Below, in pieces: positions 24,776 to 28,383 of a DNA stretch of 64,000 nt. Source of the DNA: Boletus sp. NGJ (lineage: Eukaryota > Basidiomycota > Agaricomycetes > Boletales > Boletaceae). Numbering within the stretch: position 1 is the stretch's first letter; each line of letters begins with the position of its first letter. The notes beneath the pieces are model-generated. The model saw only the letters and a list, made by a program, of their open reading frames with translations. It had not been told where the DNA came from and made no database searches. The position numbers and the translations under genes are program-made. Location of the stretch: the NCBI GenBank assembly GCA_019096195.1, contig JAGTXK010000050.1, positions 1 through 64,000 on the forward strand. The letters are read 5' to 3'.

Positions 24776-27700
24776 ATGGCCACTAGTAAACATTTCCTCG
24801 GCCCCATCGAAGAGTACGTCCTATGCTTACATCCAGCTCTTCCTTTCTCACAGCAACCACCAGGTCTGGGTTATCAGACTTCCAGCCTTCACACACCCCA
24901 ACTGCAGCTGACAGTGATGAGGAAGAGGTTTTCACGTATCCCGCAGACGACCACAATGGCGGTGACAAACACTATGACGATGACGAAGAAGAAGAAGGGT
25001 TTGCCTACCCCGACAACTCCCTAGATACCTCGGCGCATCAACATTCCCTGACAGTATCCGACGGGTTACCAGAACACGCTCTTGAGCCTCAGTCGCTTCG
25101 GCATTCTGCTCTCGAATCAACTACCGTGGTTCAAAAATTCCCAAGTTTACTTTCATCTCCACCTCAAGCACAGGCTTCGTCCCATCCGTCACCCGCCCAG
25201 CTCGAGGCCCTGTCTGCCGCAGCTTCGCAAGGTGACCTCGTTCTACTCAAGAAGTTGTTTGCTACTGCACTCCAGGGTGGTCGTCTTGAGGCCTTCGCAC
25301 TAGCAAACGATGCTTCTTCACGTACGGGGTTCACCCCACTCCATGCTGCTGCAAGTCGCGGATATTTCGACATCGTCAAGTGGCGTGAGTCCTGGGTCGC
25401 CTTTTAACCTTGCACGACCCTCTAATCATCTATTACCAGTCATCGAAGACTGCGGTGCGATGCCAGACTTGGAAGACCGCGAAGGCGAGGTTAGTATCCC
25501 TTTGTCGCTCACTGTATCCTTCCCTGACCTCTCGTGCAGACCGCTCTACACAGAGCTGCATTAAATGGCCATATGTCAGTCATCCAGTATCTGTTGGCGA
25601 ACAGAGCCGATGTCCATGCACGTGATGCAGACGGATGGACTGCATTGCATAACGCTTGCTCAAAGGTGACCTATCTTTCAAACGACTCCCAGAGTACTCC
25701 TCACCATTGTTCTAGGGATACCTTGACATTGTACGATGGCTCTGTGAAACCGGTGGCGCTGTGAATGAAGTAGCTAGGGTGCGTGGTGTTGACCTTCGCA
25801 ATAAAGGAGGTTGGACTCCTCTCAGTATGTCGTCTCCCGTTTCGTTCCTGTGATTCATGGTAACCCTCCTCACAGTGAATGCGGCCTCAAAAGGGCATCT
25901 TCCGATCGTGATATATTTGTTGTCCAAACAGGCCGCAGATCCGCTGGTACGAAATAACTGGGGCGAAACAGCGTATGACATCGCTGCTTTCGTATTTGAA
26001 GTGTGGATTTGCGAGGTATAACACATTTAACCTTCCTGTTTTGCCGTCTCATGCAGTCCGTCAGGTCTTGCAAAAGGCGGAGGTTGAGCGGTGGCGCGGT
26101 ACTACTGCATCATACAATCTGTTGTGTGTGCACACCACCATCCCTTTGGTCCTGTATGAGAATCAACGTCTCGATACTCGTTTGAAGACGCTTGCAGTTT
26201 CAGGTGGACGCCCCAAATTTTCCGCGTCTGGATTTGGAGGTCGTGGTCGTCCTGCGCCTTGTCAGTTGAAGCTTCCCTCCCCACATGAAGACACGGGGGC
26301 AAAACTGGTGGTCTCGTCGCGCAGTGATGTACAGCTTCCTCTTGCATCCGACCCATATGTGTTGCCGAACGCTTCTCGTCGGGACACTCCCATATTAGAA
26401 GGTGCAGAGCGCAGTCACTTTTGGCTGTAAGTCTATTGGTTTCTGGTTGGGTATTTATAGAAAGTAAACCAGTTCGACAGATCTGATTGGGAGATTGACG
26501 ATACCCATCCCAAAGTGAGCCCTGATGATGGCTGGCAGTATGCGCAGGGTTTTAGTGCTCCTGATGAAGCCTGGTCACCCGAGCCCCCACCACAGCTTGT
26601 ACGCCTTTTGTCCGGAACTGGGGTCGTGACAGCCAGTTTGTCGTCCCCGTCACGGAATCATGGGCGCGGAAGCAGTAGTTCCTCGTCTTCTGTATCATCG
26701 CATACAAACACTTGGGTACGTCGCAGACGCTGGGTTCGTGTCATGCGCCGTAAACCTTTCCCTCCTCTCCCCTTCATGGAACCTGATGGTGCGATGTATG
26801 ATCTTGCCCATGATGGATCTCTGATCCCCCACGTAAGCAATGGCGAAGGCGCAGAGGGAGGTGAAGAGGGGCAAGAACTGGAGGCAATGCGTCCCAACCG
26901 GTTATCTTTGGCGCAGGACTACGTGGCGCGTGCACGCTATCTCGTTGGAAACCGGTCAGAGAGCAACGACGAAGCTCGATCTGCTGTTGAAACGCGTCGC
27001 GTTATCGCTAAACTCGAACGGGCGACAAGCGAACTACGACAGGGAATTTTGAGTAAGTTACGCCTGGTGGTCATTTGATCTTGCTCATCGATCCAACAGG
27101 TGACGACGACAGAGAACGGAAAATACAAGCTGAGGTCTTGCTAAATGCATACAGCAGAGAGCTGGAACGATGTAGACTTTCCGCAGGTGCACAAGGTTTT
27201 CTAAACTCCGGCACGGACGACGAATTTAATAATGATGGTGATGATGGTGACGACGACGACGACGACGATGAAGTTTTCCACTATCCAGGGTACTCTCCTC
27301 TCACGATCCATACACCTTCTGTCAGATCCGGATCAACCGAACACTCCTCCCGTCTTGCGATCGCTCGAGACCTCACTCCCGACTTGTCTCAAGCAACCGA
27401 GTTCCGAGTACCCACTCGCGAAGCCCCTCAGAAGATGGCCGCTCCGATACGGCAGCCTATTCCCCCTTCACCCAATACACAGTGGGAGCGGGACGATGCA
27501 GTGCAGGCTTGCAATGATTGTCAACGTCGCTTTAGTTTTATTCTGAGAAGAGTAAGTCCCGCCCTCAGCTGACATCATCGAGTCCTAAAAGGTTGTCTGT
27601 TTCGTTGGATTTCGCTAGCATGTAAGTACATCCAAAATCATGACAAATAGCTGTTACCCTCAACCCGAATTCACAGCACTGTCGAAGATGCGGACATATC

Positions 27701-28383
27701 TTCTGTGACCGTTGCTCATGTCACAGGGTCCTCCTCAGTCCATCTGAGATCGTACAAGATCCAACATCTCCAGTGATTACTGGAACATCAACATCCTCGT
27801 CTCAGCGTGTTTGCCAGTCCTGTCTTGATCAACGCAATGCGAGTACTTCTGCCGTGGAGCGCATCGTGGTTGATCGGGGGAGATTAATGACTCCTGGTCA
27901 GCTCACGCGACAGAATTCTAGCTCGCAACTAAGCGACCTTGCAGAGTAAGTCGTGAGACTTTCTATAGTTGGTGGTGGTTGGCTCAAATCTTGCAGCTGC
28001 CCTGTTTGTGGAACTAATCTTTCGGCTTTCGAGGGTCCAGGTCAGGAAGCCCACGTCAAGGGTTGTCTGGACGGTGGGGCTAGCTCTGCCCCCCAGGCTG
28101 TCAAGTATCTCGTGTATGAACTCCCAGCTGAAAGTGCTTTGGTTGGTGTTGAATGTGAGTTCTTGGCAGCTGATTTTGGCTTCTCGCTCATGTCACCTAG
28201 GCGTCATCTGTCTGGAAGAATTTACAAAAAGCTCCGAAGTTGCACGACTGAGCTGCTTCTGTAGTTTCCACAACGGTGAGAACTATTTGTGCCCTTCCAA
28301 GAGAATGCAACTCATACTGGCCCCCAGCATGCTTATCATCTTGGTTGCAGCGTGGTCGCAGCTGTCCAGTTCATACACGCTGA
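24776..28383 (+). CDS. Ankyrin-DysF-FYVE-RING multidomain protein
   Basis: ATG 24776 gives MATSKHFLGPIEE, spliced to an acidic region, then ankyrin repeats (TGFTPLHAAASRGYFDIVKW, TALHRAALNGHMSVIQYLL, GWTALHNACSKGYLDIVRWL, GWTPLMNAASKGHLPIVIYL). A dysferlin-like segment follows (DWEIDDTHPKVSPDDGWQYA, then VRRRRWVRVMRRKPF). Next are acidic runs and a FYVE finger, ACNDCQRRFSFILRR plus HHCRRCGHIFCDRC, predicting PI3P binding on endosomes. A small CPVCGTNL zinc motif and a C-terminal RING-type finger (CVICLEEFTKSSEVARLSC, CLSSWLQRGRSCPVH) end at TGA 28381-28383. The FYVE motif needs a 3-nt exon. The domains suggest an endosomal ubiquitin ligase; that role is inference. Confidence 0.85.
27619..27621 (+). 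other. Predicted 3-nt microexon (His codon) in the FYVE motif
   Basis: CAT is preceded by TTCGCTAG (acceptor) and followed by GTAAGT (donor). The flanking exons end at 27551 (..RR) and resume at 27677 (HCRRCG..). Including CAT gives RRHHCRRCG, the invariant FYVE signature; skipping it gives RRHCRRCG, one zinc/lipid-contact His short, with frame unchanged. Confidence 0.65.

Follow-up and report, generated by a model that had tools for sequence, protein, structure and literature searches.

A putative three-base exon encoding the first histidine of the FYVE signature motif in a Upa1-like gene of Boletus sp. NGJ

Introduction

The FYVE-RING protein Upa1 of Ustilago maydis (UMAG_12183) has been described as an adaptor of endosomal mRNA transport (PMC4466420, PMC9249222). 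It is reported to carry ankyrin repeats, a FYVE domain, a RING and PAM2L motifs, which comprise an acidic stretch, F-x-x-P and a nearby Tyr and bind the RNA-transport protein Rrm4 (PMC4466420, PMC9249222). Joint deletion of FYVE and RING is reported to abolish endosomal movement and function of Upa1, while the RING alone is dispensable, as is the interaction with Pab1 in U. maydis; the same report compares PAM2L sequences across relatives from Coprinopsis, Laccaria, Coniophora and Auricularia (PMC4466420). FYVE and RING also occur together in Pib1 of Saccharomyces cerevisiae and in mammalian Rififylin, from which Upa1 is set apart by its ankyrin repeats and its PAM2 and PAM2L motifs (PMC4466420). 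Mutations in the RRHHCR signature of FYVE domains have been reported to impair PI3P affinity (PMC8491906), and the two histidines of the motif have been linked to pH-dependent binding in certain FYVE domains, but not in that of Phafin2 (PMC3001460, PMC10178739).

Microexons of 1–9 nt are known from plants, where exons of a single nucleotide were described in APC11 and VPS55 (PMC8831610). Exons of very small size frequently escape annotation, as reported both for plants (PMC8831610) and for the Trichoderma gene Xlr2 (PMC11121469). The term microexon denotes an exon no longer than 30 nt whose splicing has been observed in RNA, and it is applied here to a CAT trinucleotide recognized from sequence and motif alone. 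This trinucleotide lies in a Upa1-like gene and would code for the first histidine of the FYVE signature.

Results

The gene model was built in a window of 64,000 nt, the whole stretch of DNA analysed, which belongs to a genome examined over 32.8 Mb in 141 contigs. Translation of the splice model from the ATG at 24776 to the stop codon ending at 28383 (plus strand, as for all window features below) gave 14 exons, 13 GT-AG introns and a protein of 976 aa. The Upa1-like model (24776–28383) combines an acidic N-terminus with ankyrin repeats, a FYVE domain and a C-terminal RING, the Pfam matches being Ank_2 (E 3.2e-46), FYVE (1.1e-17) and zf-RING_2 (6.4e-9). The RING finger, placed by Pfam and by motif positions, is spread over two introns (28151–28371). 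Introns 9 and 10 (27552–27618 and 27622–27676) flank the CAT; the former is with 67 nt the longest of the gene, and the remaining 11 introns measure 46–55 nt each.

The junctions of introns 1, 6 and 7 were set by the reading frame only. Alternative AGs lie 10 nt and 8 nt upstream of the chosen acceptors of introns 24814–24863 and 26016–26064, respectively; the acceptor of the former was picked by reading frame, and use of the upstream AG in the latter stops the model at 370 aa. Between the ankyrin repeats and the FYVE domain, at about 26310–26740, a weak likeness to Pex24p (PF06398; E 0.073) reached 12.5 bits, below the cut-off of 26.8. Elsewhere in the genome, a translation at locus L040 (G000:C122:63155-63307) shares 38% identity with the RING tail over 50 residues. 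When viral contigs were scanned with the C-terminal 210 aa, none of the 13 pattern matches was a relative.

The protein shares with Upa1 the ankyrin repeats, the FYVE domain and the C-terminal RING, as well as acidic F-x-x-P motifs with a Tyr that are placed N-terminally and ahead of the FYVE domain. A motif search located three such PAM2L-like motifs, compared to two in U. maydis Upa1: DEEEVFTYP (24916–24942) and DDDEEEEGFAYP (24976–25011) at the N-terminus and DDDDDDDEVFHYP (27249–27287) ahead of the FYVE domain, each with the acidic stretch, F-x-x-P and the Tyr. Six-frame translation of a 264-kb sample (527,916 residues) contained three matches to the acidic F-x-Y-P pattern, all of them in this protein. 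Differences to Upa1 were also found. The reported core of its PAM2L motifs is EFxxP, whereas V or G directly precedes the Phe in the window motifs, so that the Glu is missing in all three, and the window protein is with 976 aa shorter than Upa1 (at least 1287 aa). At residue 740, a further sequence (EFRVP) matches the core and has no acidic stretch. Three patterns for canonical PAM2 (xxLNxxAxEFxP, the motif for Pab1) gave no match in the window protein. A Pfam search of the genome for MLLE domains yielded one locus; the MLLEs of Rrm4 are reported to score weakly in SMART (PMC4466420). Judged by this architecture, the window protein probably serves as a Upa1-type adaptor for endosomal mRNA transport. 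Pib1 and Rififylin resemble it, by their published description, in the pairing of FYVE with RING (PMC4466420).

Within the FYVE domain, the WxxD motif is translated as WERD (27483–27494) and the upstream exon ends with AGA AGA (27546–27551), coding for the RR of RRHHCR. It is followed by a phase-0 intron of 67 nt (27552–27618; GTAAGT...TTCGCTAG, ending in GCTAG), by CAT (27619–27621) and by a second phase-0 intron of 55 nt (27622–27676; GTAAGT...ATTCACAG), which separates the two His codons. The downstream exon (27677–27945) opens with HCRRCG (CAC TGT CGA AGA) and codes for the rest of the domain, including the RVC motif at residue 835 (27806–27814). The first-pass annotation had described a lone CAT between the RR exon and the HCRRCG exon, whose inclusion completes RRHHCRRCG and whose skipping leaves the frame open with one His fewer, and translation of the splice model bears this out. 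An mRNA carrying CAT would read AGAAGACATCACTGTCG and one without it AGAAGACACTGTCG, the latter giving RRHCRRCG. Of the four modelled outcomes, two preserve the frame, namely inclusion and full skipping, while retention of intron 27552–27618 or of intron 27622–27676 truncates the protein to 796 aa or 819 aa, respectively, instead of 976 aa. A stwintron, in which one of the outer intron's splice motifs is split by an inner intron, was considered and rejected, both introns having complete GTAAGT and YAG ends with CAT left between them. The 125 nt had no other match in the genome at E≤0.001 that would point to a repeat origin of the introns.

With CAT included, all three PI3P motifs of the domain (WxxD, R(R/K)HHCR and RVC) are present as WERD, RRHHCR and RVC, the last within RVCQSC. 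The same fragment scored 71.5 bits against FYVE (PF01363) with CAT and 61.3 bits without it, both above the Pfam cut-off of 27.8; the short form lacks one residue of the signature motif and no longer reads RRHHCR, and its translation retains the eight zinc cysteines. The second and third zinc cysteines are 12 residues apart when CAT is included, as they are in three paralogs and in the four solved proteins measured, and 11 apart when it is skipped; for 1z2q the value of 12 was counted by eye from the CxxC, an extra Cys otherwise giving a spurious 10. In solved FYVE structures the motif is free of gaps in all five displayed of 14 matched (four proteins), as RRHHCR in three and RKHHCR in two, and both histidines are likewise kept in the five other FYVE loci of the genome. 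Since the HH pair is kept in these loci and structures and the cysteine spacing falls from 12 to 11 on skipping, the comparison argues that the His coded by CAT is simply required. Because RRHHCR mutants are reported to be impaired, the skipped form would likely bind PI3P poorly or not at all.

The splice sites around CAT are of unequal quality. Two scoring matrices were applied, both limited in size: one derived from the gene's remaining 11 introns, which is small, and one from a strict set of 26 introns, which is noisy. The donor at 27622 (GTAAGT) is in the top 3.1% (11-intron matrix) or 0.1% (26-intron matrix) of window GTs. The acceptor at 27618 is matched by 22–24% of window AGs with these two small and noisy matrices, and that at 27676 is in the top 4.5% with the 11-intron matrix and equalled by 62% of window AGs with the 26-intron matrix. 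The donors are strong and the acceptor at 27618 is ordinary, which is the sole use made here of the matrices; the “good” acceptor of the first-pass annotation was overstated. A third matrix, self-trained on 264 kb, was dropped after its set had expanded to 1247 introns, whose lengths showed an implausible tail; in that set the acceptor at 27618 ranked at the 47th and the donor at 27622 at the 89th percentile. Among the eight AG...GT mini-exons listed within the 125 nt, one of them of zero length, CAT had the best combined score.

The placement of a His codon between such signals is improbable by chance, although all chance estimates for CAT were worked out after the fact. YAG-CAY-GTRNGT occurred once in 528,000 strand-bases of the genome, at the CAT site itself, so that the resulting chance of about 1e-4 over some 55 usable positions is an upper figure. 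When the 125 nt were shuffled 200,000 times by dinucleotides, this pattern appeared in 22 of the shuffles and any 3-nt YAG-NNN-GTRAGT in 250. The sequence YAGCATGTAAGT has 13 copies in the 32.8-Mb genome versus 10 for the control, which corresponds to about 1e-5 over 55 positions. Donor-branch-acceptor pairs in 264 kb exceeded the reversed control at 40–59 nt (38 vs 13), with no excess at 60–69 nt (10 vs 10) or 110–129 nt (15 vs 19). A single intron of 125 nt would be atypical for this gene and sample, the other introns measuring 46–55 nt, and the 67-nt intron is also a little long, with no excess in its size bin.

The search of the genome with PF01363 gave seven matches at six loci, the window gene being the sixth. 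The HH codons are uninterrupted in four of the six (on contigs C77, C45, C26 and C22). In the C81 paralog (L005 1335-1509, G000:C81), CGC CGC CAT is followed by a 55-nt phase-0 intron (GTTCGT...GATCAG) and then by CAT TGC, the intron thus lying exactly between the His codons; removal of this intron and of a 48-nt intron inside WxxD gives a FYVE domain of 63.3 bits. In this paralog the donor is GTTCGT and the first CxxC is replaced by CxxxxC. At the C45 locus (L002, minus strand) the FYVE frame breaks after RKHHCRICG, where, judged by eye, a GC-AG intron with a GCAAGT donor would join QIFC. When the window FYVE domain was aligned to two paralogs, the score for C81 (141.5) was higher than that for C77 (109.0), with PTSPV preceding the last motif in both. 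Intron 27622–27676 is at the position of the C81 intron and intron 27552–27618 is the extra one.

Discussion

The data presented here point with good confidence to CAT as a genuine phase-0 exon of 3 nt that is normally constitutive, that codes for the first His of the PI3P-binding motif R(R/K)HHCR, and that arose by an intron placed 3 nt upstream of an older one between the His codons, still seen in the C81 paralog. As the C81 intron sits at the position of intron 27622–27676, the microexon is best explained by such an extra intron 3 nt from the older one. The arrangement fits common descent of the intron between the histidines, followed by gain of intron 27552–27618 in the window gene, although two genes are insufficient to settle the direction of intron change; it is also possible that the C81 intron arose by a separate insertion event at a favoured site.

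Regarding the mechanism, we infer that the two short introns are removed in turn by ordinary intron definition. Splice sites 3 nt apart would be too close for simultaneous use, and the introns are therefore unlikely to be spliced at once. CAT constitutes bases -3 to -1 of the second donor, and prior removal of intron 27552–27618 would leave the context of this donor unchanged. In this order of events CAT would be present in nearly all mature mRNA, and a low level of retention would be the main error.

Retention could instead be the usual failure or a means of control, with truncation before the RING lowering the amount of the Upa1-like protein. In favour of such a role, both retained forms stop early, retention around plant microexons is reported to be commoner than skipping, with the flanking introns competing (PMC8831610), and the intron preceding the Xlr2 microexon is described as kept in some T. 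reesei transcripts (PMC11121469). We nevertheless regard it as improbable as the principal behaviour of this site, compared to constitutive inclusion of CAT.

The first-pass annotation had proposed that inclusion of CAT switches PI3P binding on and off. Its structural part, a 3-nt phase-0 exon that completes R(R/K)HHCR and whose loss keeps the frame, is confirmed, and the regulated on/off control of PI3P binding found no support. In a regulated cassette, CAT would be skipped in some states and the RRHCRRCG form would leave the endosomes with its ankyrin, PAM2L-like and RING parts intact. Skipping in frame with all zinc cysteines kept, the reported effect of motif mutations on PI3P affinity (PMC8491906) and the switching of the Xlr2 microexon by carbon source (PMC11121469) are compatible with this; however, skipping requires removal of a 125-nt intron, beyond the usual length range. 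The probability that CAT is skipped in this manner is accordingly rated as slight. It is just as doubtful that regulated inclusion of one His moves a Upa1-type adaptor, along with the RING and the RNA cargo partner, on and off endosomes, possibly with a pH response of the His pair. That no microexon exists and one 125-nt intron (27552–27676) is always removed, leaving a degenerate RRHCRRCG motif, is least likely of all: the outer splice sites are both usable, the frame is open, the inner acceptor at 27618 is unremarkable and the short form passes the Pfam cut-off, but this reading requires YAG and GTAAGT to enclose a His codon by chance (about 1e-4), costs 10 bits of FYVE score and creates an 11-residue spacing absent from the three paralogs and four solved proteins measured.

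Compared with known tiny exons, CAT resembles the 1-nt exons of plant APC11 and VPS55 in being tiny, internal and included, and VPS55 has a GTRAGT donor (PMC8831610). The 3-bp micro-exon of Drosophila homothorax (hth) has the same size as CAT, but its 3 nt are described as opening a longer alternative exon (PMC7392893). In contrast to the APC11, VPS55 and hth microexons, the CAT codon specifies a signature residue of a lipid-binding motif. Xlr2 was the relevant fungal microexon among the matches listed, and a 3-nt exon in a fungal FYVE gene was found in none of those listed from the open-licence literature. The Xlr2 microexon likewise comes from a filamentous fungus and completes a zinc-binding domain, but it measures 20 nt instead of 3 nt (PMC11121469). 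It is reported to be regulated by glucose, whereas no sign of regulation was found for CAT, and no reads joining exons 1 and 3 are reported for it, so that its regulation is not simple skipping (PMC11121469).

If CAT is included as proposed, the window gene would provide a fungal 3-nt exon whose single codon specifies a signature residue of a functional motif, together with a paralog that suggests a route of formation, by an intron placed 3 nt from an older one. Since tiny exons frequently escape annotation, a His may be wrongly absent from the annotated sequences of such proteins. Should CAT be skipped to any degree, the gene would offer a natural experiment in which a single residue tests endosomal mRNA transport.
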